From positions 9,714-71,946 of the forward strand of contig NZ_KE384370.1 in the NCBI RefSeq assembly GCF_000425405.1: a stretch of DNA of 62,233 bases, read 5' to 3'. Made by a program: the position numbers and the translations under genes. The notes below the pieces were generated by a model. The model ran no database searches and was not told where the DNA came from. It saw only the letters and a list, made by a program, of their open reading frames with translations. This DNA is from Ferrimonas kyonanensis DSM 18153. Lineage in GTDB: Bacteria > Pseudomonadota > Gammaproteobacteria > Enterobacterales > Shewanellaceae. This document shows positions 1,627 through 16,566 of this stretch, one piece after another (the first letter of the stretch is position 1; each line of letters opens with the position of its first letter).

Positions 1627-3543
1627 TTACTTCTGCTGATCCAGGAAGCGCTGATAGCGCTCTGTGCCTTCAATCAGCTTGGCACGTTCAGTGTCGTCAA
1701 ATACTCCAGGCTTAGGGTATTCGTCGTCGTGACAGTTGCTGCAGGCATTGGGCAGAACATCGAAGAAATCACACACCTGGCTTACGCGATAGATCCCGTC
1801 GCTGTAACAAGGTCCATTGGCGCCGCCCATGGCTTGAATGTAACCCCACCACTTGGTCATCATCGGATCGGAGCCTTTGCCGCGTGAGTAGGGCGCCAGG
1901 GCGTCGAAGTTGGCCAGAGACTCTGCCGGGCTGATGGCATCGAAGCTGTGGTTGTCGTTGCTCCAGCGGGTGGCAACCGATTCGGTGGCGACGAAGTGAC
2001 AGTCGACGCAGGAGACCCCGACCATGTCGTGGATTGGCAGGGTGTGGTTGGCGCCACGATCCTGGTGGCATTGAGTGCACAGGGCATCCCCCTGTTTCTG
2101 CATGCCCATGGCGTGAGGGTCATGACAGGTCACACAGTCGATCTGCATCTCGAAGTGCTTGGAGGTCATGTAGGTGGCCACCTGATTCTTCTGCCCCTTG
2201 GGGTAGTCGGTGCCAAGGAACACGCCTTGAGTATCCACCTCGGTGAACAGGCTCAGGTCATCGCCAGTCCGGTAGTGCTTTCCGGGGTTGGTGGTGATGT
2301 TTCCGTCTTCATCGAACTCAGGCAGGTAGGGCTGAGAGTAGTGGTAGATATCTGGATGCTTGGCCATCTGGTGACACTGCGCACACGAATCTACCGATTG
2401 CTGGAAACTCATTTTTGCGGGGTTGGTGATGTCGTCGCCACTCATGCTGGTGGCGTGAAGGGAGCCCTCGTTGTGGCAGCGTTCGCAGCTGATGCCATCT
2501 TCTACCGCATCGGAGTCCTTAGAGTTGGTGTGGGCAGCCAGCATGGTGTACTTTTCGCTGACGTCCCATTTCTCAATCTTGCCGCCGGTGGTGTGACAGG
2601 TGAAGCACTGGTTGTCCCAGCTCATCTTTTTGAGTTCTTCACGCTGTTCGATGGGGCCGACAAAGGCCGAGTTAACAATATCCCCCTCTTTAACCAAGCT
2701 GCCATCCTGATGCCAGTAGGAGCTGGTAGTGTAAAAGGAGGTGAACCGGGCGACGTTGCCGTCGTTAAACCAGGCAAAGGGCATCATCCGGCCATAACTG
2801 CTTTCCACGTTGGGATCGTCGTCGGAGGGAAAGTCGTAGCTGACGAATTGCTTGGAGGTGGTGCTGGATATGCCGTCAATACGGTACACCACAGACTCGT
2901 CGGTGTTGATGGCATCGTGAAGCTCGGCGTAGTACTTACCGTCCGCCCCTTTATAGGTGGAGAAGCGATAGTTGGGTTTGCCATACATGGTGTGGTGCTT
3001 TGGATCCGCTTCGGTGCCCCAGTCCAGTTCCGGGATGATCGCCTCGATGGTTTTGTTTTCCTGGGTATAGAGGCGACGGTAATCCTGGGCGTGTTTGGTA
3101 GGCTGCCAATCGTTATAGTGACTGGAGTGGCAGCTCTTACAGGTCTTGGCGGTCACGAAGGTCGCTTCAGTGGGTTCAGTTTGGCCACTTTCTATGGTGA
3201 TGTAGACGGTCCCCGTTGCCTGCAGCTCTCCGTCGGAAATGGTGTAACTGAAGCTGGACTCACCCAGCGGCGCGTCGGCTGCGGCACTGAAGCTCAACTT
3301 GCCATCGTCGGTGATGGACAGGTCACTGGACACCAGACTCAGGGTGTCGCCGTTGGAGTCGGAGTCGTTGGCCAGGGCGTCGATGATAACGGTATCGCCG
3401 CGATTGACTGAGACATAATCGGGCTGGGCGATAGGAGCGCGGTTGTCGGGAAGCGGTATCAGTGTGTTGTCATCATCACTGCCGCAACCAACCAGGCCCA
3501 CTGATAGTGCCAGCATGAGAGGTGTAGTTCGTTTCATCATCAT
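1627..3543 (-). CDS. Octaheme c-type cytochrome lipoprotein with a cadherin/Ig-like domain
   Basis: A secreted lipoprotein of about 638 residues that should carry eight covalently bound haems. The start chosen is ATG at 3543 (MMMKRTTPLML), with AGGA upstream; the longer frame adds only six residues. The signal peptide ends in the lipobox LVGC. Residues 30-115 form an Ig/cadherin-like beta domain (DYVSVNRGDTVIIDALAND, FSYTISDGELQATG). The rest holds eight CXXCH sites: CKSCH, CFTCH, CERCH, CAQCH, CVTCH, CTQCH, CVDCH and CSNCH. The spacing recalls the cytochrome c-554-like multihaem families. It is probably an outer-membrane or periplasmic electron carrier; acceptor and donor are unknown. It shares an upstream palindrome with the two cytochrome units further along. 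Confidence 0.85.
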   Translation of the reverse strand: MMMKRTTPLMLALSVGLVGCGSDDDNTLIPLPDNRAPIAQPDYVSVNRGDTVIIDALANDSDSNGDTLSLVSSDLSITDDGKLSFSAAADAPLGESSFSYTISDGELQATGTVYITIESGQTEPTEATFVTAKTCKSCHSSHYNDWQPTKHAQDYRRLYTQENKTIEAIIPELDWGTEADPKHHTMYGKPNYRFSTYKGADGKYYAELHDAINTDESVVYRIDGISSTTSKQFVSYDFPSDDDPNVESSYGRMMPFAWFNDGNVARFTSFYTTSSYWHQDGSLVKEGDIVNSAFVGPIEQREELKKMSWDNQCFTCHTTGGKIEKWDVSEKYTMLAAHTNSKDSDAVEDGISCERCHNEGSLHATSMSGDDITNPAKMSFQQSVDSCAQCHQMAKHPDIYHYSQPYLPEFDEDGNITTNPGKHYRTGDDLSLFTEVDTQGVFLGTDYPKGQKNQVATYMTSKHFEMQIDCVTCHDPHAMGMQKQGDALCTQCHQDRGANHTLPIHDMVGVSCVDCHFVATESVATRWSNDNHSFDAISPAESLANFDALAPYSRGKGSDPMMTKWWGYIQAMGGANGPCYSDGIYRVSQVCDFFDVLPNACSNCHDDEYPKPGVFDDTERAKLIEGTERYQRFLDQQK

Positions 3544-3871
3544 TTTGTTGTCCTTTGTCATTATTTTTTCAATGAGATCGTACGATGGAAGCTGGATTGG
3601 GTTGAGTGAGCGGGCTGACAGAGATCAGAAGGGTCATTAAAGGTTGGGGTGGAGATGTGACATTTCGTTCACATACACCCGGAGGCGACGAAAACACTTC
3701 ACCGTTATGCGCATAATGATGGATGCTCGTCACGATTTTCTGACGGTTAGTCGGTGAGTGAAGTGAAAAAGTGGAGAAGCTCTCCATCTAATTACACCGT
3801 GTCTCTGTCGCGGACTATGGAGCAGAATCGTTGGCTTGGACCGATCACTGTCACGATGGTCGGTCTGAAAA
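3544..3871. other. Intergenic promoter region of the octaheme cytochrome
   Basis: No gene is seen. The region holds the shared operator palindrome at 3772-3786 and a separate inverted repeat ATGTGA-N8-TCACAT at 3655-3674. The latter resembles a CRP site but has eight rather than six central bases, so CRP binding is doubtful. The promoter itself cannot be placed with confidence. Confidence 0.5.
3772..3786. promoter_or_regulatory. Shared operator palindrome, copy 1
   Basis: Perfect inverted repeat TGGAGA-AGC-TCTCCA, 229 bases upstream of the chosen start of the octaheme cytochrome. The same arms with the same 3-base centre occur at 6929 and 9701. Read on the minus strand all three share ATGGAGA-N3-TCTCCACTT. 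Confidence 0.65.
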
Positions 3872-3900
3872 GAAAAAACCACCTGCATATGAGGTGGTTT
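3872..3900 (-). terminator. Rho-independent terminator of the first tetraheme cytochrome gene
   Basis: Minus-strand hairpin AAACCACCT/AGGTGGTTT with a six-base loop followed by TTTTTTCTTTT, just after the stop at 3909. Confidence 0.85.
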
Positions 3901-3908
3901 GTATTGGG

Positions 3909-5966
3909 TTACTGCTTGGCCTGGTGACAGGTCATGCAGGAGTAAGTACCAGGGAAACTCTTACTTAGGCTGTAAGCATTGTTGTGGGGTACCCATAACG
4001 GGCCAAATAACTCAATTTCGCCATCGAGCGCCGTCGGAGCGCGAGGCACGTAGTGTTGTCCAGTCTCGTAATGGGGCTCCCCCATATAGTAGGAAACGGT
4101 GTCGTGGTTACTGCGGTTGTCATCGGGCTGCAACAGGAACTGGGCACTGGCTTCGCCATGATTAGGCATCACCGGAGCATAGTCCTGGCTGGAGTCATTT
4201 TTGGCGTTGTGGCAGAAGCTGCATCGGGTTTCCTGATCGTGACGAGGAGTCGCGCCATTGCTGCCATGGCAGGTAGCACAGTAGTGCGGCTGTTGCACAT
4301 CAAAACCATCGGCTGCATTCACCGGCCAGGAGGCGCCGCCGTGGCCATTTGGATCGCGTTGCTCGTTGTGGCACTGGGTACAATCAGCAATTTTCCAGCC
4401 AAAGTGGGTTGAATCTAGCACTGGGGCTTTGCCCACCGGGTTGGAGTCTGTTGCTGGAATTAGGGTTCGAAGTACCGCAGTATCGCACTTTCCACCTTTG
4501 CACGAGTTGATATCGTAGTTACCAAAATCGCTGCGCAGCAACTTGTCTTTGTCGACAAACACCTGCAATTGCTTATCGGCATCCAGTTCGTTGCCGATGA
4601 TCTGCTGGAAGCCCAGAAACAGGAAATCGACGCCGTAGTTGTTTACGGTAGTGTAGTGGTCGGTATTAGTCATATAACCGCCGCTGCCGTTGTGCTGGTT
4701 GAACCAACGATCGCATTCAGCCTGACCTTGGGTCCACATCCCGGTTCCGCCAATGGCGGCAGATGGCCCACCTTGGTCGTTCATGTGCATGCAGTTGGGG
4801 TTGGTGCTGAAGTCTCCCATCATGCTGCCCGGGTTTTGAATGAGGCGCCCAAACCAGTTACCGAAACCGCCACCCTGGCCCAGCGGGCCTTTAGACAAAA
4901 CAAAGCTATTGAAAGGAACGCCTGTGCTTAAGGTTGGCCAAAAGCTGAATCCAAGATCAATATTGTAGTCAGCAGCGGCGCTGAGGAAGTAATCCATGCC
5001 AGTGATCACCCCAGGCTGAAATACGTCACTGCGCAAGTTGAATGGGCGCACTTCGATTTGAGTGGCGATGATGCCACTGTCGCCCGGAGCGGCGTCCGGG
5101 TGATCGTCGACTATCAGGCGCAGTGCATCGGCAATGACTTTACCGCCATTTTGGGCCTTTTTGTCGATTTCGTGTTTCCATGCCAGGGTGCGACGTCCTT
5201 TCATCGCTTCTGAGGTCGGCAGGAAGCGAACTACGTCACCGGTTTTAAGCCAATATTCATCCATGCGGCTGTACATGTGGAAGGTAAGTCCACCGACGTA
5301 ATCTTTGTTGTCGCCATTGGAAGCCATCAGTTGGAAGTGCCACAGATCGCTGTTTGAATGTACGCCGTCATTGGTGAAGTCACCGTCGCCATTTTCATCC
5401 CAGGAGAGGGTGAATTCGTGAGTCTTATAGTCAGACTCTTCTGGCTTAATGACGTTGTCAAAGCGCAGATCGCTGCGGGTGGCGACGAAATAGCGCAGCA
5501 GATCGAAGACGGAGTAGTGCCCCTCTACGAAAATATCGGGACGAGCCGTACCGGCTCCAAGACCATCGGGGTTGGTCTTTAACACGCGGTCAATTTCACT
5601 GCCCAAGGTACTGACCTCAAGCCCAAGCTCCACTCGAGCGCCTGCGGCAGAGGAATCCCAACGGTTAATCCAGCCATCGCCGTTCAGGTCATAACTCATG
5701 TCGCCCTGTTGGGCGAGTGCCGATCCTTCGTTAATGTACTGGATGACTTTTTCTTCACTTTCTCCAAAGAAAACGTCGAATTTCCCAGCCAGCTTTGGTG
5801 AGTTAAAGTCTTCGGAGGGCGGAGTTTCGATGTAGTTCCAAGCCTCATTGACCGGTTTATCGACTGGGGGTTCTGGCACGTTGGGAGTGGAGGAGTCATC
5901 CGAACCACAGCCTGCTAGGCCAACACATAGCAAGGCTGGTAATAAACTATACCGGCTTCTCATCAT
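3909..5966 (-). CDS. Tetraheme c-type cytochrome lipoprotein with dockerin-like calcium loops (paralogue A)
   Basis: About 685 residues. The start is ATG at 5966 (MMRSRYSLL), after AGGAAAAG. The signal peptide ends in the lipobox LAGC. A dockerin/EF-hand-like loop DLNGDGWINRWD lies near residue 95, and a second possible loop, DENGDGDFTNDG, lies further in. The middle (NPDGLGAGTARPDIF, SVFDLLRYFVATR) belongs to no family I can name. Four haem sites sit near the C-terminus: CTQCH, CATCH, CSFCH and CMTCH. It is 45 kDa of non-haem domain with a haem tail, which suggests an extracellular or outer-membrane redox or binding protein. It is probably cotranscribed with the LuxR gene 151 bases upstream. 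It is clearly paralogous to the gene at 7142-9181. Confidence 0.85.
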   Translation of the reverse strand: MMRSRYSLLPALLCVGLAGCGSDDSSTPNVPEPPVDKPVNEAWNYIETPPSEDFNSPKLAGKFDVFFGESEEKVIQYINEGSALAQQGDMSYDLNGDGWINRWDSSAAGARVELGLEVSTLGSEIDRVLKTNPDGLGAGTARPDIFVEGHYSVFDLLRYFVATRSDLRFDNVIKPEESDYKTHEFTLSWDENGDGDFTNDGVHSNSDLWHFQLMASNGDNKDYVGGLTFHMYSRMDEYWLKTGDVVRFLPTSEAMKGRRTLAWKHEIDKKAQNGGKVIADALRLIVDDHPDAAPGDSGIIATQIEVRPFNLRSDVFQPGVITGMDYFLSAAADYNIDLGFSFWPTLSTGVPFNSFVLSKGPLGQGGGFGNWFGRLIQNPGSMMGDFSTNPNCMHMNDQGGPSAAIGGTGMWTQGQAECDRWFNQHNGSGGYMTNTDHYTTVNNYGVDFLFLGFQQIIGNELDADKQLQVFVDKDKLLRSDFGNYDINSCKGGKCDTAVLRTLIPATDSNPVGKAPVLDSTHFGWKIADCTQCHNEQRDPNGHGGASWPVNAADGFDVQQPHYCATCHGSNGATPRHDQETRCSFCHNAKNDSSQDYAPVMPNHGEASAQFLLQPDDNRSNHDTVSYYMGEPHYETGQHYVPRAPTALDGEIELFGPLWVPHNNAYSLSKSFPGTYSCMTCHQAKQ

Positions 5967-6117
5967 TTGCTTTTCCTGTTGCATTACTCATTAAGATTCA
6001 GAGCCTGAGTGGCTCTTTTTATGGATTTGATCAAGGTGACAAAATGGTTGCGGCTGTTGCCTTGGTGTTCGTCAATGAACGTGTCACCTAACTTACTGGG
6101 AAGTTTCTCTGGCAGGG

Positions 6118-6702
6118 TTAGACCCAGCCAAGATTTCTGGCCTCGAAGATTAGGTTGGGCTTGTTTATGGCGCCAATTTTTTGCTTGGCCAGAGACAGGT
6201 GATAATCGACACCTCGATTGGTTAGATGCAATACATCGGCGATCTCACTGGCATTCAGGCCTAGCGCGGTCATTTTCACGACTTGAAGCGTTTTCAGTTT
6301 TAACTCGCTGGAATCGCCCTCTGGGCGGCTGCTTTTAAGGATGGTGTTACGCAGCAGGCGTAATGCCGAGAGAGTCGAAAACTGTTCAAGTTTTTGGCAT
6401 TGATTCTTGTTCGAGATGATGACAATGAACCCGACCGGCATGGACGACTCAGACGAAAAAACAGAGTAGGATTTAACCGGTGATGTGTGTCCGCCTATGG
6501 TGATTCGATCGGATCCTTTCAGGCAGTCTTTAAGCCCAAGGATAATTCCGGCACCGGCTTTTCTCAGCTTATGGTCGGACACCGAAATGGCGGTCACTCG
6601 TGATTGTTCTATCTCATTTAATTGAATCTCTATTACCCGCGCCGGGCTGGAGAGATGCTCATTACCTGTACTGAAAAATACCCAGCCCAATTCTGATTGC
6701 AT
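6118..6702 (-). CDS. LuxR-type transcriptional regulator
   Basis: This is a 194-residue DNA-binding protein. The C-terminal 65 residues form a LuxR/FixJ-type helix-turn-helix (MTALGLNASEIADVLHLT, then NRGVDYHLSLAKQKIGA), closest in feel to the LuxR solo/quorum-sensing branch. The N-terminal 120 residues are a sensory domain of uncertain fold, shorter than a full autoinducer-binding domain and without a receiver Asp. It sits between two paralogous cytochrome genes and is probably cotranscribed with the downstream one. Its first 31 codons and its upstream DNA are duplicated at 9379-9715. It is the obvious candidate to bind the shared palindrome, but that is inference. Confidence 0.8.
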   Translation of the reverse strand: MQSELGWVFFSTGNEHLSSPARVIEIQLNEIEQSRVTAISVSDHKLRKAGAGIILGLKDCLKGSDRITIGGHTSPVKSYSVFSSESSMPVGFIVIISNKNQCQKLEQFSTLSALRLLRNTILKSSRPEGDSSELKLKTLQVVKMTALGLNASEIADVLHLTNRGVDYHLSLAKQKIGAINKPNLIFEARNLGWV

Positions 6703-6875
6703 GACTGTCCTCCGTTAGCGGTATGCGATGGTTGCCATTGTAGGAAAAGCATAAAATCGATTTCGGAGGGCCATTCGCAAAACTCATTGAGTCGATAACA
6801 GAGCCTTTTGAGTGTGATCGTCGTCTTGCTTTTGGGTTGTGTGTGGTGCGATTTTTACCTGGCGATGGGGTGTGG

Positions 6876-6891
6876 CGTGATTGTGATCACT
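6876..6891. promoter_or_regulatory. CRP-like site upstream of luxR
   Basis: CGTGA-TTGTGA-TCACT has the CRP core GTGA-N6-TCAC, with one mismatch in each outer base of the consensus. The corresponding place in the duplicated copy (9648-9663) reads CGTGA-CAAAGG-TCGCT, one more mismatch, so the site may have decayed there. Confidence 0.45.
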
Positions 6892-6928
6892 GAATGTGTG
6901 TTGTCACAGTCGGAATCTTTCTTTTAAG

Positions 6929-6943
6929 TGGAGAGCCTCTCCA
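6929..6943. promoter_or_regulatory. Shared operator palindrome, copy 2
   Basis: Perfect inverted repeat TGGAGA-GCC-TCTCCA, 227 bases upstream of the luxR start codon. It lies at the same distance as copy 3 from the luxR remnant. Confidence 0.65.
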
Positions 6944-7093
6944 TCTTTTGATTGCTGAGTCGGAACAGACAACTTAATGGAAGCCATGACTTCATCATTG
7001 CGCCTGCGCAAGCATTGCCGTACCGGCAAAAATTACAATCGCGACGTTCGGTTAGACCGGAGAGAGCGGCAGTGAGTTGAATCATCCTTTGCT

Positions 7094-7118
7094 AAAAAAG
7101 CCCCGGGTAAGGGGCTTT
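7094..7118 (-). terminator. Rho-independent terminator of the second tetraheme cytochrome gene
   Basis: Minus-strand hairpin AAAGCCCC/GGGGCTTT with loop TTACCC followed by a T run, 24 bases past the stop at 7142. It separates the cytochrome transcript from the luxR promoter region downstream. Confidence 0.85.
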
Positions 7119-7141
7119 ATTACCGTGCTATCTGGCGTTAA

Positions 7142-9181
7142 TTACTGCTTATCCTGGTGGCAGGTACCACAGGAGAATGGGTCTGGGAATTTCTTGGTGA
7201 AATCATAATCATTGTTTGAAGATACCCAGCGATCACCGTAGCCTTTTTCGTCTCCTTCCAGGACTTCACTATGGTTGTCGGAGAATCCATACATATTGTT
7301 GTCATCTCCTGCTTTGCGACGCGTGGTAACTGTATTAATCCAGTTATCTTCATGCTTCAGCAGTTTGCGAGTGCTGGCTGGACCATGATTTTTGGGTAAC
7401 ATGTCTTCCGAGTGGCACCAGAAGCAGCGGGCTTCTCGCCCGTGGGCCTCTGGAGCCCCATTGTTGCCGTGGCAAGTGGAACAGTAGTAGGGCTGGATTT
7501 CATCGAATCCGTCGGCCGCATTCACAGGCCAGGAGTAGCCTCCATGCCCCTGAGGCGCTGCCTCTTCGTTATGGCATAGGGTGCAGTCAGCCACTTTCCA
7601 GCCAAAGTGGTTTTCGTTCAACAGTGGAGCCTTGCCATGCTGGCTTTCTTCAGTTGCCGGAGTTAGGGTGCGCAAGGTGACAATGTCAGAGTCAATGAAG
7701 CCTGTCTTAACGCCTTTTTCCACCAGCGCATTATGACGCCAGTTGTAATCCCACTGGATGGTTTCGTTTTTCGAAAAGCTATCGATCTTGGTTCCGAGGC
7801 TATGGTATCCGGCATTATTTAGATCTTGTTTCGACAACACTACATTTTCGGCACCAAAAGGCATCAGCCACAGATCGTTGTTGATGTTTCCGAAATAGCC
7901 GCCGATGCCAAATGCACTCCAGAAATCTCGCACGCAATCTGTCATTGGCACTGGGGTGTTGATGGTATCGGAGCGACCCGTAACCGCATCAAAGTTGCAG
8001 ACTCCAGGCATACGGTCTGAGAAGAAGATGTCATTGCCGAACTCGTTCAGGACAGTAGTTGTAGTGACGAAGGAACGCAGGCCGACGGTCTTACCCAAAA
8101 CCGGGGCTCGGGATAAGGCGAAGGAATTAACAATAGCGCCAGTCTCCAGGGTTGGCCACCAGGTGAGCCTGAAGTCGTGTCCCCTATCAGCCAGGGTTAA
8201 AAACACGTCCATGTTGGTAATCACGCCCTCTTGGAACACGTCATTCCTAAGGTTGTGTGCCTTGACTTCAAAATTGGTGGCAATGGGGTTTTCTGGATCG
8301 TCGCTCCAGCCAATGCTGTCTACAATGACTTTGCCATTGTTCGAGGCCAGCCGGTCAGCTTCGCTCTTCCAAAGGTGTTTCAGCCGGGCCTTGAAGGATG
8401 AAGAGGCGTCAATGAAGCGAATGCGCTGCTCCTCTTTTATCAGGAACATATCCATTCGATTGAACGGAATTTCTCCACTGTGGTCTCGGTACAACCCGGC
8501 CTTGCCCATGCTTTGAGTGAATCTAAAGTGCCAGTTACTCGATTCCTCTCCCTCATCGCTAAAGCTGCCATTTCCGTTTCGGTCATAGGCTAAGGTAAAT
8601 TCATGCGTATTGTACTCAGAGTCGTCAGGTGTGGTGATCTCACCGATGAACTTCAGGTCGTCACGAGTGGCGACCATATAGCGTAGTAGGTCAAAAACAG
8701 AGTAGCTTCCCTCTTTGAAGATGTCTGGTCTTGCGGTACCGGCGCCTAAACCATCAGGGTTCGTTGACAATACTCGGTGGATCTCTTCAGCCGAGACTCG
8801 AGATATGTCTGTCTGTTGATTAACGATGCCCGCAAGGTTTGCATCGAGCGCATTGACAAATCCGTCGCCATTGACATCGGTGTTGCACGGCTGAGTTACA
8901 TTATCTGGCAAGGTCAAGCAGAAATTGTCAGAATCCTTAGTAATGCCTCGGATCCACTTCCAGACCTGCTCGTTCATGTAGTCAAAAGTCACATTGATAT
9001 GGCCTTTTAATCCATTGGTATTGAGCTCCATTTTACCGCTCTCAACATATTCCCAAGCCGGGTTATCCGGAGTTGGGCCCGGCCCTGGGTCAGGTGTGGC
9101 AGGTGTAGAGTTATCAGAGCCACAACCGGCAAGTATTAATGCGAATAGGCCAGGCAGTGCCTTTCTTTTTTTGATCATCAT
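7142..9181 (-). CDS. Tetraheme c-type cytochrome lipoprotein with dockerin-like calcium loops (paralogue B)
   Basis: About 679 residues, related to the gene at 3909-5966 along its whole length. The start is ATG at 9181 (MMIKKRKALPG), with GGAG five bases upstream; the longer upstream frame has no such site. Lipobox LAGC. The calcium-loop-like segments are DVNGDGFVNALD and DRNGNGSFSDEG. Shared core motifs are NPDGLGAGTARPDIF, SVFDLLRYMVATR, HFGWKVADCTLCH and GGYSWPVNAADGFD. The four haem sites are CTLCH, CSTCH, CFWCH and CGTCH, all in the last quarter. It is preceded by a decayed luxR copy, so its regulation probably depends on the intact LuxR protein made from 6118-6702. Confidence 0.85.
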   Translation of the reverse strand: MMIKKRKALPGLFALILAGCGSDNSTPATPDPGPGPTPDNPAWEYVESGKMELNTNGLKGHINVTFDYMNEQVWKWIRGITKDSDNFCLTLPDNVTQPCNTDVNGDGFVNALDANLAGIVNQQTDISRVSAEEIHRVLSTNPDGLGAGTARPDIFKEGSYSVFDLLRYMVATRDDLKFIGEITTPDDSEYNTHEFTLAYDRNGNGSFSDEGEESSNWHFRFTQSMGKAGLYRDHSGEIPFNRMDMFLIKEEQRIRFIDASSSFKARLKHLWKSEADRLASNNGKVIVDSIGWSDDPENPIATNFEVKAHNLRNDVFQEGVITNMDVFLTLADRGHDFRLTWWPTLETGAIVNSFALSRAPVLGKTVGLRSFVTTTTVLNEFGNDIFFSDRMPGVCNFDAVTGRSDTINTPVPMTDCVRDFWSAFGIGGYFGNINNDLWLMPFGAENVVLSKQDLNNAGYHSLGTKIDSFSKNETIQWDYNWRHNALVEKGVKTGFIDSDIVTLRTLTPATEESQHGKAPLLNENHFGWKVADCTLCHNEEAAPQGHGGYSWPVNAADGFDEIQPYYCSTCHGNNGAPEAHGREARCFWCHSEDMLPKNHGPASTRKLLKHEDNWINTVTTRRKAGDDNNMYGFSDNHSEVLEGDEKGYGDRWVSSNNDYDFTKKFPDPFSCGTCHQDKQ

Positions 9182-9378
9182 CGACGCTCCATTGTTGCCA
9201 AAATGGTTTTTGGCATTGTTGTAATAGTTGTAGTTATCAGTGGCCAACAGGTTTGAACTTGAATATTCATCCTTGGTTGGAAGTTGCCCAATTTAACTTC
9301 ATGGAAGCTAAGCGTGTTGTTTTTTTTAAATTATGAGCTTAGTTTTTGTTTTGTATTGACATTATTCGTTAACGGTTG

Positions 9379-9474
9379 TTATATCTCGATATATTGAGCC
9401 ATCGCCAATAGCATCGGGATAGAGAGGTGGTCATGATGTGTACTAAAACAGATCCAGTCTAATTCTGATTGCAT
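9379..9474 (-). pseudogene. 5' remnant of a second luxR-type gene
   Basis: The frame starting at 9474 gives MQSELDWICFSTHHDHLSIP, against MQSELGWVFFSTGNEHLSSP in the intact regulator. The frame stays in register through Q27, E30 and I31. Then codon 32 is TAA where the intact gene has GAA, and the Gln after it is still conserved. Only about 200 bases remain before the cytochrome start, so the sensory and DNA-binding domains are gone. This is a decayed duplicate of 6118-6702. It could still be translated as a 31-residue peptide, though nothing suggests a role for one. Confidence 0.8.
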
Positions 9475-9700
9475 CACTTTCCTCCTCTAACGGTATTGGA
9501 TGGTTGCCATTGTAGGGAAAATGTAAAGATGATTTAGGAGTGGCATTCGCAAAACTCATTAAGGTGATAACAGTGCCACGCTGATGTGATGAGAGTCGCA
9601 ATTGCATCGGCTCAACTGATGGATTCTTTCAGGGCCGGGGCACACAGCGTGACAAAGGTCGCTAACTGTGGTTTGACACAGACGCTGCATTGTTTCGAAG

Positions 9701-9715
9701 TGGAGAGTTTCTCCA
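9701..9715. promoter_or_regulatory. Shared operator palindrome, copy 3
   Basis: Perfect inverted repeat TGGAGA-GTT-TCTCCA, 227 bases upstream of the luxR remnant start. The arms are intact although the neighbouring luxR frame is broken, which fits continued use to control the cytochrome at 7142-9181. Confidence 0.65.
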
Positions 9716-9930
9716 TTTTTAGAGGCGACATACGCTTGGCTTGGAAATAGCAATAAAACCTTTAAGAACATTCACTTAGGATGTTGCTTGGGGTTTTTAA
9801 ATTAGGGGCGGGTGGAGTTTTGACCATTATGGGCCCAGTTAGCGGTAGCCAAGTTCAGTGTTATAGTGAAGCCATGCGAATGACGGGGCGGTGCTCCGAA
9901 CGGTATTAGAACGCAACACTGGACGTTAAT

Positions 9931-10623
9931 ATGTTTAATAAAGCTCAGATAAGAAAGGTCAAGATTGCCAAAGCCGCCATGAGACTGATCAGAGAACAGG
10001 GCTATTTGCAGTTCTCGATGAATGAGCTTGCTAAAGAGGTGGAGGTAACCGCAGGTACCCTATATCGTACCTTCGCATCTAAAGATGATTTGCTGGTTTA
10101 TTTGTTCAGTTCGGTAATAGAAACACTCGCCGAATCCATGTATAAATTTAGCAGGATGGAACTGTCGGCAAAAGAGAAGATTGTTTGTTTTCATTGCTAC
10201 CAATTCTACTTGAGGCAGTTCTACCCAGACAGTGCATCACTGGATCTTATCGGGACCAATAAGGCAATGTTTGATCAGGCTAGGCCGGAGACTAGGGAAA
10301 AATTCCAGCATATTTTTGACATGTCGTCGGTAAAAATAAGGAAGCAATTTTCGGATCTGGTTGAGAACGGCAAGGTCAAAGCCGACGAAGATCTGCTTTA
10401 TCAAGTGCTGAGACAGATGACCATCATTGGTCGGGGCGGCATGGTGATCTCCAATCATGTATTTATTCCCCAAGAGGTATTTAAAATCGAAGACCTAGTC
10501 AGTCTGTGTTGTCATACGCTGGATCAACTGGATTGGCAGGGCGAAGAGGGCAGGGCAGATAAGAGACTCATATTGTTGGCATTGCGCTCCGAAGTCGAGC
10601 AGTCCGTTTCAGAACTTTGGTAA
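9931..10623 (+). CDS. TetR/AcrR-family transcriptional regulator
   Basis: 230 residues. The N-terminal helix-turn-helix is typical: AKAAMRLIREQGYLQFSMNELAKEV, then TAGTLYRTFASKDDLLVYLF (about residues 10-58). The C-terminal ligand domain is unassigned. The start is ATG at 9931 with no strong Shine-Dalgarno sequence. It lies 243 bases ahead of a fatty-acid-type operon on the same strand and could control that operon by sensing an acyl-CoA, but it could equally act on the cytochrome genes on its other side. Neither is shown by the sequence. Confidence 0.85.
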   Translation: MFNKAQIRKVKIAKAAMRLIREQGYLQFSMNELAKEVEVTAGTLYRTFASKDDLLVYLFSSVIETLAESMYKFSRMELSAKEKIVCFHCYQFYLRQFYPDSASLDLIGTNKAMFDQARPETREKFQHIFDMSSVKIRKQFSDLVENGKVKADEDLLYQVLRQMTIIGRGGMVISNHVFIPQEVFKIEDLVSLCCHTLDQLDWQGEEGRADKRLILLALRSEVEQSVSELW

Positions 10624-10866
10624 TCACCGCTATTCGGTGACAACGGGAACTGGTTGTTGGAGTGGGGTGGGCGTACCGGTCGCTGTTTTTCGTCTCTTTC
10701 GTTGCCAGAAAATCACTACCCGGGTCATTTAACGTTGACCTGCTTTCTTGCAAGCGCCAGTTGCGCCGCTGCCGATTTTTGTCACTGCTGTTGACCGAAA
10801 TGGTCATTCATCCCCCAGGTGTTTTTTCATAGAGTGGTGAGACTTCCGTTATTGCAAGGATTGCTC

Positions 10867-12075
10867 ATGACTCAAGACGCCTACCTGTTCGATGCCATAC
10901 GTACCCCAAGGGGACGGGGCAAAGCCAATGGCAGCCTGCACGAAATTAAGCCCATCTCGCTGCTGGTGGGATTGCTGCATGAGTTGCAGCGTCGCCACGG
11001 CTTTCAGACTCAGGACGTGGACGACATCGTTCTGGGCTGCGTCACCGCCGTGGGCGATCAGGGCGCCGACATTGCCAAGACCGCGGCGCTGGCTGCGGGC
11101 TGGGACGATGATATTGGTGGCGTCACCCTGAATCGATTCTGTGCCTCCGGCCTGGAGGCGGTCAACATGGCGGCCATGAAGGTGCGCTCTGGTTGGGAGC
11201 AACTGGTGATTGCCGGTGGTGTCGAGTCCATGTCCAGAGTGCCGATGGCGTCCGACGGCGGTGCCTGGGCCAACGATCCGCACACCAATCTGAAGACCGG
11301 GTTTATGCCTCAGGGCATTGGCGCCGATCTGATTGCCACCTTGGAAGGTTTCAGCCGTGAGCAGGTGGATGCCTTTGCGGTGCGGTCGCATCAGCGGGCG
11401 GCAGCGGCCTGGCAGCGGGGTGCCTTTAATCGCTCGGTGGTGCCGGTGATGGACCAAAATGGCTTTACCGTGCTGGCGCAGGACGAGTTTATTCGGCCGG
11501 ATTGCAGTCTCGAGACCCTGGCGGGATTAACGCCGTCGTTCCAGGCGGTGGGTGAGATGGGCTTTGATGCGGTGGTACGGGAGAAATACCCTCAGGTGGA
11601 GCGAATTCACCACCTGCATACTGCGGCTAATTCCTCCGGCATTGTCGACGGCGCCGCCCTGGTGCTGATCGGCAGCGACGCCATGGGTAAGCGTTACCAA
11701 CTGACCCCCAGGGCCCGCATTGTCGCCACTGCCGTGGTCGGCACCGACGCCACCATCATGTTGACCGGGCCGGCCCCTGCGGCCCAAAAGGCGTTGTCGC
11801 TGGCCAATCTCAATGTTGAGGACATCGACCTGTTTGAGGTTAACGAAGCGTTTGCCTCGGTGGTGATGCGGTTCCAGCGGGAGATGAACATTGGCGATGA
11901 CAAGGTCAACGTCAATGGCGGTGCCATCGCCATGGGCCACCCGTTGGGGGCCACTGGCGCCATGATCTTGGGTACCTTACTGGATGAGCTGGAAGCCCGC
12001 GACCTGAAACGCGGCCTGGCCACACTTTGTGTCGGCGGCGGCATGGGCATTGCCACCATCATCGAACGGGTTTAA
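10867..12075 (+). CDS. Acetyl-CoA acyltransferase (thiolase)
   Basis: 402 residues, the usual size for the thiolase family, which cleaves 3-ketoacyl-CoA to acetyl-CoA and a shortened acyl-CoA or runs in reverse. The catalytic features are all present: nucleophile Cys92 in [11 protein letters not shown], the NEAFA motif, His in GHPLGATGA and the second Cys in CVGGGMG. The start is ATG at 10867 ([16 protein letters not shown]) with AAGGA upstream, rather than the longer frame. It is the first gene of a four-gene operon with a hydratase/dehydrogenase, an acyl-CoA dehydrogenase and a CoA transferase, so it is most likely degradative. Confidence 0.92.
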
Positions 12076-12087
12076 GGGAGCCAAACC

Positions 12088-14220
12088 ATGAACAGCTTAC
12101 GTATTGAGCAAGACCACAATGGCATTGCCCACTTGATTCTGGATCGCCAGGGGGCTTCGGCCAATTTGATGGATGAGCAGTTTGCCGCCGATCTGGCCCA
12201 GGCGGTGGTTCAACTGCAACAGATGACCTATTGCGGAATCATTGTCCGCTCGGCCAAATCGACGTTTTTTGCCGGTGGCGACCTGGGCAAGATTGCCGAG
12301 GTTACCGCTGAGACCAGCCAGCCGTTTTTTGCCATGGTCGAGTCCATCAAGGCCAGCTTGCGAGCGCTGGAAACCGGCGGAAAACCCGTGGTGGCCTGCA
12401 TCAACGGCGCCGCATTGGGCGGCGGCTGGGAGGTGGCACTGGCCTGTCACCATCGCATCGCCCTCAGGCATAAGTCGGTGAAGCTGGGGTTGCCCGAGGT
12501 GACTCTGGGGCTGTTGCCCGGTGGCGGTGGCATTGCCCGTACCGTGCGCCTGTTTGGTTTGCAGGCGGCGATGCCATTGCTCACCGAAGGCAAACAGTTT
12601 GGCGCCGAAAAAGCGCTTAAAGCGGGATTGTTGCACGAACTGGCCGATGGTGAGCAGGCGATGCTGGCACAGGCTAGCGCCTTTATTCAAGCCAATGAGC
12701 AGAGTTGCCAGCCCTGGGACGTCAAGGGCTACCGCCTTCCGGGAGGTCACCCCAATTCACCCAAGTTGGCTCAGATGCTGGCGGTGGCTCCGGCCATGCT
12801 CAAGCTAAAGACCAAGGGGGTGTTGCCGGCGCCGGAAGCAATACTGTCCGCCATGGTAGAAGGCGCTCAGGTGGATTTTGACACCGCCTGTCGCATCGAA
12901 TCCCGTTATTTTGTGTCGCTGGTGACCAGCCAGGTGGCCAAGAATCTCATCAACACCTTCTGGTTTCAGCTTAACGACATCAAGGCCGGAGCCAGCCGTC
13001 CCGACGGCATTGAGGCCGCAACGGTCAGTAAGCTGGGGGTGCTGGGCGCCGGCATGATGGGGGCCGGCATCGCCTATGCGGCTGCCAGTCGCGGCATCGA
13101 GGTGGTGCTCAAGGACGTGAGCCTGGCCAATGCCCACAAAGGCAAAGCCTATTCAGAGGCCCTGTTGGCCAAGCAACTACAGCGAGGCCGCATTACCGCA
13201 GAGCAGCAAGCCCAGACACTGGCGCGTATTCACCCCAGCGAGCAGGCGGCGGATCTCGGGGGGTGTGAACTGGTGATTGAGGCGGTGTTTGAGCAGCGAC
13301 AGCTCAAGGCTCGCGTCACCCAGGAAGCGGAGCGGCATCTGCCTCAGGAGGCGGTATTTGCCTCCAACACCTCGACCCTACCCATCACCGGCCTGGCTGA
13401 GGCGTCAGAGCGACCGGGGCAGTTTATCGGCCTGCATTTCTTCTCCCCGGTGGACAAGATGCCGCTGGTGGAGATCATTTGCGGTGAGCAAACGGACTCG
13501 GCGACGTTGGCCAAGGCCTACGATTTTGTGTTGCAACTGGGGAAAATCCCCATCGTGGTCAATGACAGTCGAGGCTTTTTCACCTCTCGAGTGTTTGGCA
13601 CCTTCACTAACGAAGGCATCGCCATGCTGGGAGAAGGGGTGTCGGCGGCGGCCGTTGAGAACGCGGCTTTCCTGTGTGGCTTTCCGGTGGGGCCGCTGGC
13701 GGTCTCCGATGAGGTCAGCCTGACCTTGATGGAGAAAATTCGTAACCAGACCATAGCCGATCTGGCCGATGAGGGCATCACTCAGTTGCCAAAGGCCGGT
13801 GACGCCACCATCGACCGAATGATCGAGCTGGAGCGGCCCGGCAAGCTGGCGGGTCAGGGGTTCTACGATTATCCGCCCGAGGGCAAAAAACGGTTGTGGT
13901 CAGGGCTCAAGGCGCAGTTTTATCGTCCCCAGGCGCAATTACCACTGCAGGAGATCAAAGATCGGCTGTTGTTCATCATGGCCATAGAAACCGCCCGCTG
14001 TTACGAGGAGCAGGTGCTGACCAGCAGTGGGGACGCCAACATCGGCTCGATTTTTGGTATTGGTTATCCGGCCTGGACCGGCGGTGCGCTGCAGTTTATC
14101 AATCAATATGGCCTTGGTCGTTTCGTTGCCAGGGCCGATGAACTGGCCGAGTGTTACGGTGACCGGTTCCTGGTGCCGGACTCGCTCAGAGCGCGTGCCG
14201 ATGCCAATCAACAATACTGA
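12088..14220 (+). CDS. Bifunctional enoyl-CoA hydratase / 3-hydroxyacyl-CoA dehydrogenase
   Basis: 710 residues, FadJ/FadB-like. Residues 1-280 are a crotonase domain with the oxyanion-hole segments FFAGGDLG and NGAALGGGWEVALAC and the catalytic-region LPEVTLGLLPGGGG. From about 308 comes an NAD-binding fold, KLGVLGAGMMGAGIAYAAA. The dehydrogenase motif GLHFFSPVDKMPLVEI with its catalytic His follows, and then the C-terminal 3HCDH domain. It would hydrate 2-enoyl-CoA and oxidise the product to 3-ketoacyl-CoA, the substrate for the thiolase 12 bases upstream. It has GGGAG upstream of its ATG. Chain-length preference cannot be judged. Confidence 0.92.
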   Translation: MNSLRIEQDHNGIAHLILDRQGASANLMDEQFAADLAQAVVQLQQMTYCGIIVRSAKSTFFAGGDLGKIAEVTAETSQPFFAMVESIKASLRALETGGKPVVACINGAALGGGWEVALACHHRIALRHKSVKLGLPEVTLGLLPGGGGIARTVRLFGLQAAMPLLTEGKQFGAEKALKAGLLHELADGEQAMLAQASAFIQANEQSCQPWDVKGYRLPGGHPNSPKLAQMLAVAPAMLKLKTKGVLPAPEAILSAMVEGAQVDFDTACRIESRYFVSLVTSQVAKNLINTFWFQLNDIKAGASRPDGIEAATVSKLGVLGAGMMGAGIAYAAASRGIEVVLKDVSLANAHKGKAYSEALLAKQLQRGRITAEQQAQTLARIHPSEQAADLGGCELVIEAVFEQRQLKARVTQEAERHLPQEAVFASNTSTLPITGLAEASERPGQFIGLHFFSPVDKMPLVEIICGEQTDSATLAKAYDFVLQLGKIPIVVNDSRGFFTSRVFGTFTNEGIAMLGEGVSAAAVENAAFLCGFPVGPLAVSDEVSLTLMEKIRNQTIADLADEGITQLPKAGDATIDRMIELERPGKLAGQGFYDYPPEGKKRLWSGLKAQFYRPQAQLPLQEIKDRLLFIMAIETARCYEEQVLTSSGDANIGSIFGIGYPAWTGGALQFINQYGLGRFVARADELAECYGDRFLVPDSLRARADANQQY

Positions 14221-14236
14221 TATCAAGGAGTGATGC

Positions 14237-15385
14237 ATGTTTCCAAGAACCCTGTTTGACAGTGATCAAGAGCTGTTTCGCGATAGCGTACGCCGCTTTA
14301 TTGAGACCGAGATTACCCCCTTCCATGCCCAGTGGGAGAAGGACGGCTGCGTCGACCGAGCCTTGTGGAATAAGGCCGGTGAGCAGGGCTTCCTGTGCCC
14401 GACGCTGCCGGAGGCCTATGGCGGCGTCGAAGTCGATTTTCGCTACAACGTCATCATCAACGAGGAGATCGCCCGCGCCGGCGCTTCCGGCATCGGCTGG
14501 GGACTGCACTCCGACATTGCCGTGCCCTACATTCTCAACTACGGAACCGAAGAGCAGAAACAACGGTATCTGCCCGGCTGCATCAGTGGCGAGCTGGTGA
14601 CCGCCATCGCCATGACCGAGCCGGGAACCGGCTCGGATCTTCAGGGGGTGAAGACCACCGCGGTCCGCGACGGCGATGACTGGATCATCAATGGTTCCAA
14701 GACCTTCATTACCAATGGTCAACATGCGGATCTGGTGATCGTGGTGGCCAAGACCGACAAGAGTGCCGGCGCCCGGGGCATCAGCCTGTTTTTGGTGGAA
14801 GCCAGTCGTGATGGCTACAGTCGAGGCTCAAACCTGGAAAAGGTCGGCATGAAAGCCCAGGATACCTCCGAGCTGTTCTTTGAGGATGTGCGGGTGCCGG
14901 CTCAAAACCTGCTGGGCGCCGAGGGGCAGGGGTTTGTGTACCTGATGCAGGAGTTGCCGCAGGAGCGCTTGTCCGTGGCCACCAACGCCATCAGTAACAC
15001 CGAATCGATTCTGGAACAAACGGTACAGTATGTGTCGGATCGCAAGGCCTTCGGCAAACCCATCGCCGCGTTTCAAAATACCCAGTTCAAACTGGCGGAG
15101 TGCAAAACCCGGGTCGATGCCACTCGAGTGTTTGTGGACCGCTGCGTCGAATTGCACCTTGAGGGTAAGCTGGATGCAGCCATGGCCGCCGAAGCCAAGT
15201 TGCTTACCACCGAGTTGCAAGGTCAGGTGATCGACGAGTGCCTGCAGTTGCACGGAGGCTACGGCTACATGTGGGAATACCCGGTGGCTCGCGCCTGGGC
15301 CGATGCCCGGGTTCAGCGGATCTACGCCGGTACCAGCGAGGTGATGAAGCTGATCATCGCCCGCCAGATGCTGGAGCAAGGGTAA
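14237..15385 (+). CDS. Acyl-CoA dehydrogenase
   Basis: 382 residues, full length for the flavin-dependent family that introduces the 2,3 double bond of acyl-CoA. Visible hallmarks are AIAMTEPGTGSDLQGVKTTA (FAD/substrate signature 1), the WIINGSKTFITNG strand, QDTSELFFEDVRVP, QERLSVA and the C-terminal signature LQLHGGYGYMWEYPVARAW with RIYAGTSEVMK. It follows the hydratase gene by 16 bases with AAGGAG and overlaps the CoA transferase start. In the operon it supplies the enoyl-CoA substrate. The electron acceptor (ETF) is not encoded here. Confidence 0.93.
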   Translation: MFPRTLFDSDQELFRDSVRRFIETEITPFHAQWEKDGCVDRALWNKAGEQGFLCPTLPEAYGGVEVDFRYNVIINEEIARAGASGIGWGLHSDIAVPYILNYGTEEQKQRYLPGCISGELVTAIAMTEPGTGSDLQGVKTTAVRDGDDWIINGSKTFITNGQHADLVIVVAKTDKSAGARGISLFLVEASRDGYSRGSNLEKVGMKAQDTSELFFEDVRVPAQNLLGAEGQGFVYLMQELPQERLSVATNAISNTESILEQTVQYVSDRKAFGKPIAAFQNTQFKLAECKTRVDATRVFVDRCVELHLEGKLDAAMAAEAKLLTTELQGQVIDECLQLHGGYGYMWEYPVARAWADARVQRIYAGTSEVMKLIIARQMLEQG

Positions 15386-16566
15386 TGAAAGGGCCGCTGA
15401 CCGGGATACGAGTGCTGGATTTCTCTACCCTGTTGCCCGGCCCGTTTGCCACCATGATGCTGGCGGATATGGGGGCGCAGGTGACCCGAATTGAGTCACC
15501 GACTCGTCCGGACCTGCTGCGCAGCATGGCGCCGATGGTGGCCGGGCGATCGGCGGCCCACCTGACGATGAATCGTAACAAGCACAGCGTGGCTCTGGAT
15601 TTGAAATCGCCCGAGGCCATCGAAGCGGTGCATACCCTGGTGGGGCAATACGATGTGGTGGTGGAGCAGTTTCGCCCCGGTGTCATGGAGCGGTTGGGGT
15701 TGGGGTATGAGCGCCTGAAGGCGATCAATCCGCAGCTGATCTACTGCTCCATCACCGGCTATGGCCAACATGGGCCGATGCAGGCGAAGGCCGGTCACGA
15801 CATCAACTACCTGGCTTTGTCTGGGCTGGCCAGTTACAGCGGCCGCCTGGACACCGGCCCGGTGTTGTCAGGCACCCAGGTAGCGGACCTGGCCGGGGGA
15901 TCTCAGCAGGCGGTGGTCGCCATTCTGGCGGCGCTGCTGGGCCGGGGTGTCAGTGGTGAAGGCCAACACCTGGATGTGGCCATGGCCGATGGTGCCCTGG
16001 CGATGAACGCCCTCTATGGCGCCGGTGCGTTGGCCAGTGGCGAGGCCCCCGGGCCGGGACAGGAGATGCTTAATGGTGGCGGTTTTTACGATTATTACCG
16101 CACCGCCGATGACCGCTATTTTGCGGTGGGTGGGTTGGAGCCGCAATTTGCCAAAGAGTTCTTTCATGCCTTAGGGCGGCCGCAGTGGCTCACCAGGGCG
16201 GCGGCGCCTCCTGGCCAGCAGCAGGCGCTGAAGCAGGACATCGCCGCCTGTTTTGCCGAGCACAGTTTCGATCATTGGCGCCGGGTGTTTGCCGACGTCG
16301 ATTGCTGCTGTGAGCCGGTGCTGACCGTTAGCGAGGCGGCGGCGCATCCCCAGTATCAGGCGCGGAACATGCTAACACCGGTGGCCGTGGCTGGGCAGGA
16401 GTTGCTGCAGGTGGCGATGCCGGTTAAGTTCCGACAAAGCCAAGGCCAGCCGCAGGCCGGGGCGGTGCTGGGTCAACACACCAAGGCGGTGTTACTGGAG
16501 GCCGGGTTGACCCCGGAAGCGGTTCAGGCCCTGCTGGCATCTGGGGTGGCCCTGCAGAGTGACTGA
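15385..16566 (+). CDS. CaiB/BaiF-type (class III) CoA transferase
   Basis: 393 residues when started at the ATG at 15385, which overlaps the TAA of the preceding gene (TAATG). A longer frame from 15238 would lie inside that gene. Family features are the opening GIRVLDFSTLLPGPFATMMLAD, ADMGAQVTRIE and the catalytic-Asp region AGHDINYLALSG. Such enzymes move CoA between carboxylic acids or act as racemases (alpha-methylacyl-CoA racemase is in the same family). The position at the end of a beta-oxidation operon suggests activation or racemisation of a branched or unusual acid, though the substrate is unknown. It ends just before the convergent NUDIX gene. Confidence 0.88.
   Translation: MKGPLTGIRVLDFSTLLPGPFATMMLADMGAQVTRIESPTRPDLLRSMAPMVAGRSAAHLTMNRNKHSVALDLKSPEAIEAVHTLVGQYDVVVEQFRPGVMERLGLGYERLKAINPQLIYCSITGYGQHGPMQAKAGHDINYLALSGLASYSGRLDTGPVLSGTQVADLAGGSQQAVVAILAALLGRGVSGEGQHLDVAMADGALAMNALYGAGALASGEAPGPGQEMLNGGGFYDYYRTADDRYFAVGGLEPQFAKEFFHALGRPQWLTRAAAPPGQQQALKQDIAACFAEHSFDHWRRVFADVDCCCEPVLTVSEAAAHPQYQARNMLTPVAVAGQELLQVAMPVKFRQSQGQPQAGAVLGQHTKAVLLEAGLTPEAVQALLASGVALQSD

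Follow-up and report, generated by a model that had tools for sequence, protein, structure and literature searches.

We analyzed a 62,233-nucleotide stretch of the Ferrimonas kyonanensis DSM 18153 genome (contig NZ_KE384370.1; hereafter the window) in which exact copies of the palindrome TGGAGA-N3-TCTCCA precede three multiheme cytochrome transcription units. The first unit encodes an octaheme cytochrome with an N-terminal Ig/cadherin-like domain (1627–3561, minus strand; start codon probably at 3543), and the second encodes a small LuxR-type (GerE) regulator of 194 amino acids (6118–6702, minus strand) followed by a tetraheme cytochrome with four CxxCH motifs and a lipoprotein-like start (3909–5984, minus strand). 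In the third unit, a luxR remnant of 31 codons and a stop (9379–9474, minus strand) lies upstream of another tetraheme cytochrome (7142–9247, minus strand) whose start, judged from the part conserved in relatives, is probably near 9181; the orthologue of this cytochrome follows an intact luxR in two related genomes, G005 and G008. A TetR-family regulator of 230 amino acids is encoded divergently (9931–10623, plus strand; Pfam TetR_N, 1.6e-14), and cluster association and residue–operator covariation make it the best candidate to bind the palindrome. The three palindrome copies, predicted TetR-type operators read with their units on the minus strand, occupy 3772–3786, 6929–6943 and 9701–9715, exactly where a preliminary description of this DNA had placed them. 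With start codons refined by alignment and distances taken from the near palindrome edge, copy 1 lies 228 bp before the octaheme start and copy 2 lies 226 bp before the luxR start, in keeping with the first two of the distances previously given (229, 227 and 227). Copy 3 sits between tetR and the broken luxR–cytochrome unit, and the distance given earlier for it runs to the start of the luxR remnant; the probable cytochrome ATG is farther off, at about 519 bp.

The window has no second 6-N3-6 palindrome arm with three occurrences, and no such arm occurred more than twice in any of 100 first-order simulations of it. The 4.93 Mb genome (40 contigs) contains five exact copies against approximately 0.26 expected for independent, identically distributed bases: three in the window, one on contig C9 inside a 303-amino-acid open reading frame (ORF), and an intergenic one on contig C4 that reads TGGAGAACTTCTCCACTT. 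The C4 copy stands 224 bp upstream of a luxR paralogue whose product shares 32% identity with the window LuxR; a tetraheme cytochrome gene and a tetR gene come after this luxR. All four exact intergenic copies therefore stand upstream of cytochrome units. Allowing up to one mismatch gives 25 places versus 4 for a reversed control pattern, an excess that is largely coding because the C9 copy and all 20 one-mismatch places lie in ORFs (19 of at least 100 amino acids, the remaining one of 79). The copies have the extended form TGGAGA-N3-TCTCCACTT in common, as described earlier except for the leading A, which is G in the C4 copy. The octaheme leader has only about 20 bases in common with the leaders of copies 2 and 3, all around the palindrome, and copy 1 is therefore not explained by duplication, as had been argued before. 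The exact copies, genome count, simulations and leader comparison rule out chance or a repeat as the source of the palindrome. The C4 luxR–cytochrome–tetR cluster also carries the same strong inverted repeat around GTCAGCGTGGCTGAC at both ends (L118:5330 and L118:9017), and looks as if it had been inserted as a block. Across the genome there are at least 16 four-heme cytochrome paralogues (stretches L118–L127), nearly all beside a LuxR-type gene; these pairs are a large lineage-specific set of regulators and cytochromes in Ferrimonas.

We extended the search to 117 genomes, 14 from the genus (the window genome being G000) and 103 from outside it. The exact extended form occurs at nine sites in four genomes, all Ferrimonas (four in G000, one in G002, two in G005 and two in G008), and every site stands upstream of an octaheme, luxR or luxR-remnant unit; the looser pattern TGGRGA-N3-TCYCCAYTT matches the same four of the 14 genus members. 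Outside the genus, 18 sites with up to one mismatch compare with 24 for the reversed control, which is chance level. Contigs of Ferrimonas sediminum and F. futtsuensis carry LuxR orthologues. The palindrome precedes the luxR start by 226, 226, 226, 228, 224 and 224 bp in six units and by 215 bp for a G001 luxR and the G005 C29 luxR, and precedes the octaheme start by 228, 226 and 232 bp in three genomes (the last with a GTG start); in G003, where the octaheme gene is followed by tetR, the variant palindrome TGGACGGATGCTCCA lies 228 bp upstream. Three divergent cytochrome units have the palindrome at 302, 302 and 291 bp. The leaders of the seven unit types are only 22–34% identical in ungapped comparison while this position is kept, and the palindrome is therefore a conserved island. 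With a fourth copy in the genome, a conserved position in relatives and chance-level occurrence beyond the genus, the earlier proposal that the palindrome is the operator of a small cytochrome regulon is supported as a prediction.

Counted from the palindrome as anchor, the leaders contain further elements at fixed places. In the luxR unit, the CRP-like box AGTGATCACAATCACG lies at +52 (6876–6891), a second box with a weak left half, CAAGACGACGATCACA, at +115 (6813–6828), and the −10-like hexamer TACAAT at +201 (6737–6742), all on the minus strand. The third unit repeats this layout on the same strand with AGCGACCTTTGTCACG at +52 (9648–9663), TGCGACTCTCATCACA at +115 (9585–9600) and TACAAT at +201 (9509–9514), and the octaheme unit, also on the minus strand, has the weak box CGTGACGAGCATCCAT at +52 (3719–3734; 6 of 10 consensus bases), a second box TGTGA-N8-TCACA with a spacer of 8 in place of 6 (3656–3673) and TACGAT at +204 (3577–3582). 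We tested this register in six unalignable leaders, a set that leaves out orthologues, the duplicate unit, two divergent cytochrome units, the G005 C29 luxR and the G008 C4 cytochrome. A CRP-like box (TGTGA-N6-TCACA) stands at +52 in all six with 6–8 of 10 bases (mean 7.2), a mean score reached in none of 10,000 circular shifts; when orthologues are included, for 14 units in all, none of 5,000 shifts equals the +52 peak. The second box, at +113 to +116, scores at least 7 in five of the six leaders, and the −10-like score is highest between +200 and +203 (p = 0.002 with all six leaders, 0.015 when G003 is left out), with a good hexamer in register (+201 to +204) in four of six. In two units the boxes lie about one helical turn closer, near +41 and +104 for the G005 C29 luxR and at +40 and +104 for the G008 C4 cytochrome. 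By arithmetic, the 52- and 63-bp steps are approximately five and six helical turns. The genome encodes CRP (399 bits against a curated cut-off of 266). In G003, where no LuxR match reaches E ≤ 1e-8, both boxes are present, which speaks against the boxes being LuxR sites. From the box and −10 register, the promoter is probably some 200 bp downstream of the palindrome, which would be a distal TetR element phased with CRP. Predicted −10-like sites lie at about +201 on the cytochrome side and at +161 to +171 on the tetR side, and the palindrome overlaps neither predicted promoter because tetR reads away from it and has its own −10-like TATAGT (9862–9867, plus strand), which is separated from the start of the palindrome by 161 bases. 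The C4, G001 and G003 clusters have tetR downstream within the cytochrome unit and none across the palindrome; together with the lack of overlap, this placement favors control of the cytochrome promoter from a distance.

The regulator that accompanies the palindrome was sought in 40 stretches around LuxR, tetraheme and octaheme matches, picked blind to TetR and split into 44 clusters; the stretches cover most matches and leave out, for example, G008:C12, G005:C26, G002:C3 and several of G001. Automated counting gave 13 clusters with a relative of the window TetR (E < 1e-8), and the C19 cluster, whose stretch ended before its tetR, makes 14. The palindrome occurs in 9 of these 14 clusters versus 0 of the 30 without TetR (hypergeometric probability approximately 3e-6, calculated by hand), such that all nine palindrome clusters have a TetR-family gene at the locus.

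Operator sequence also varies with TetR sequence. The helix-turn-helix of the window TetR contains N31 and T47, in the second and third helices of a predicted model (mean predicted local distance difference test score, pLDDT, 54; usable in the helix-turn-helix only). By alignment to the TetR sequence, we take these positions to be Arg28 and His44 of TetR. In TetR, Arg28 and Gln38 form side-chain hydrogen bonds to tetO bases, and mutation of His44 to alanine reduces repression (PMC7102968). Among the Ferrimonas proteins, N31 occurs with TGG[A/G]GA and R31 with TGGACG, and residue 47 is T or S with TGGAGA, Y with TGGGGA, and L or E with TGGACG. The combination of N31 with T/S47 and TGGAGA is found for TetR1 in four genomes, TetR2 in two, the G000 C4 protein and the G001 997k protein, whose site TGGAGA..TCGCCA has one mismatch. 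N31 with Y47 (G008 C4) accompanies TGGGGA, present in two copies in the cluster of which the second reads TGGGGA..TCGCCA, and R31 with L/E47 (G003, G005 C29 and G002 C10) accompanies TGGACG, although only the right part of such a site, TATACGGGTGTTCCA, is left in G002 C10. The operator types are not clades: TGGAGA requires four changes on the tree, a fit equalled by 132 of 500 shuffles.

On the computed conservation and spacing of the sites, the association with TetR and the residue–operator covariation, we propose that the palindrome is the operator of a TetR-family dimer and the distal element of a composite CRP promoter, a reading that covers activation or repression and to which we give a probability of roughly 0.68. 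The TetR dimer encoded at 9931–10623, or its relatives in other clusters, would bind the 15-bp palindrome, and the promoter would run from this operator to a CRP box at 52 bp, a second box 63 bp on, a −10 element about 86 bp on and a start codon about 40 bp on. CRP would bind the boxes, transcription would begin from the −10-like site, and TetR, released or engaged by a ligand, would gate CRP-driven transcription of the octaheme, luxR and tetraheme cytochrome genes. A 15-bp, 6-N3-6 dyad is of a size that fits a dimer, and tetO is likewise 15 bp (PMC7102968). The Ferrimonas system resembles TetR–tetO and other TetR-family operators in its 15-bp dyad, in a regulator gene beside its target and in helix-turn-helix residues at tetO-contact positions that vary with the operator (mapped by alignment to the TetR sequence), but differs in that its site lies approximately 160–200 bp from −10-like sites without overlap and its regulon consists of multiheme cytochromes.

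The direction of TetR action is less firm, and a close comparison is with the Vibrio quorum regulators OpaR, LuxR and HapR, which are TetR-family proteins. OpaR, a TetR-type activator, leaves footprints 125–204 bp upstream of qrr2–4 (PMC3323551), and HapR acts jointly with CRP and contacts it (PMC10328515). Because OpaR binds far upstream and HapR contacts CRP, we prefer a distal co-activator, although the odds against a repressor that acts from the same distance are barely better than even. Far-upstream TetR-type binding and joint action with CRP are alike in the two systems, whereas the qrr genes also need LuxO and sigma-54, and the Ferrimonas boxes stand apart at fixed 52- and 63-bp steps where HapR and CRP share sites. 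The Shewanella Crp regulon is directed to anaerobic respiration (PMC3223726) and similarly links CRP to respiratory genes, but the part of that account available to us describes no TetR partner for Crp control. Tentatively, and with the odds leaning against so specific a proposal in all its parts, Ferrimonas may carry duplicated TetR–CRP–cytochrome modules in which a TetR dimer works from about 200 bp upstream as a distal co-activator, in helical phase with two CRP dimers; operator and recognition residues would have co-diverged in these modules under a constant promoter geometry.

Several observations weigh against the proposed TetR–CRP operator. Most TetR-family proteins repress locally, from operators that overlap the promoter, and the palindrome overlaps neither predicted promoter. 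The register is imperfect: the C4 unit has no second box (2 of 10 bases), that of the octaheme unit has the spacer of 8, the G001 and G008 C4 luxR leaders have their best −10-like hexamer out of register, and two divergent cytochrome units with the palindrome at 302 bp, one in G005 and one in G008, lack the CRP register. The association was computed with a TetR cut-off of 1e-8 chosen after the hits were seen and on clusters of which several are orthologues; 5 of the 14 TetR-bearing clusters have no palindrome, and clusters L124 and L157, counted as TetR-less, have weaker TetR neighbors (E = 2e-5 and 5e-6) and no palindrome. The covariation involves approximately seven independent TetR types, and a TetR with N31 and D47 (G001 417k) has no recognized site. 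Lastly, the ten genus members without an exact site have 12 one-mismatch sites versus 1 for the control; the eight one-mismatch sites examined, from seven such members and G002, all lie in ORFs of at least 80 amino acids.

Among the alternatives, the one that survives best shares the operator and is counted within its probability: TetR may bind the palindrome but repress, by looping or by blocking CRP, until a ligand lifts it. This outcome, which we consider nearly as likely as co-activation, would agree with the usual mode of the family. In Vibrio cholerae, HapR binds together with CRP and blocks CRP activation (PMC10328515), but it does so at shared sites, whereas the palindrome and the CRP-like box are 52 bp apart, and no conserved promoter is seen near the palindrome in the aligned leaders.

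The LuxR protein at 6118–6702, which the preliminary description had named as first suspect, is better regarded as a predicted target of the operator than as its binder. Autoregulation by LuxR would account for the fixed distance of the palindrome before several luxR genes and for the full-length LuxR orthologue (58–100% identical) in all four genomes with the exact extended site. It is nonetheless improbable: the palindrome occurs in 8 of 38 clusters with LuxR and 1 of 6 without (p = 1), LuxR–cytochrome pairs lacking TetR are among the 30 clusters with no site, a variant palindrome is kept in G003 where no LuxR match reaches E ≤ 1e-8, and small LuxR proteins have nearly the same recognition helix (RGVDYH) whether or not the palindrome accompanies their pair. 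We dropped LuxR as the binder on this cluster association and helix comparison, and the TetR neighbor fits better; the further expectation that loss of LuxR always goes with loss of the site fell with G003, which keeps its variant site in register. The GerE-type activators MalT and UhpA place a LuxR-type protein and CRP at one promoter, a point of likeness to the layout predicted here, but the Ferrimonas palindrome does not follow LuxR.

A long shot is that the palindrome serves an unlinked regulator and TetR is a cluster passenger, as the TetR-bearing clusters without a palindrome might suggest; against this, operator variants occur where TetR contact residues differ, and the motif falls to chance level outside the genus. 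Other sites sought in those palindrome-less clusters yielded candidates only, namely a perfect FNR-like dyad TTGAT-N4-ATCAA (AAATTGATCCAAATCAATTT, L135) 239 bp before a G001 luxR, at the usual place of the palindrome, and the half-conserved ACGGGTGTTCCA upstream of the G002 C10 luxR. A short transcription terminator or RNA hairpin, previously named as a weak alternative, is very improbable and rejected as the main explanation: copy 1 (minus strand) and copy 2 (plus strand) pass a loose terminator scan, and copy 1 (minus strand, z = −3.1) and copy 3 (plus strand, z = −4.0) fold better than shuffles, but the stem has six pairs, the strand of the T-run is inconsistent, copy 3 is not in the scan list, the region has 12 terminator-like sites versus 7.4 (standard deviation 3.3) in shuffles, and both the arm sequence, beyond pairing alone, and the distance to the start codon are conserved.

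Regarding the neighboring genes, by inspection of the sequence the N-terminal halves of the window tetraheme proteins (3909–9247) contain EF-hand-like DxNGDG stretches; a window tetraheme protein has no solved-structure relative at E ≤ 0.01, and the cytochrome structure prediction has a mean pLDDT of 27. After tetR, ORFs at 10819–16566 (plus strand) read as a set of genes for fatty-acid beta-oxidation, and G005, G008 and G002 have similar ORFs behind their tetR1; no exact palindrome precedes the set in the window.

Our literature search, which covered listings of results, showed nothing on the regulation of Ferrimonas cytochromes; the proposed operator, if correct, would provide these genes with an identified regulator and with a promoter layout that can be put to the test. 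The co-diverged modules would then form a natural series for reading TetR specificity, and these related TetR–operator pairs, in which the sites vary and a few contact residues differ, could serve to examine the evolution of TetR specificity and the ability of a TetR protein to act at 200 bp together with CRP.

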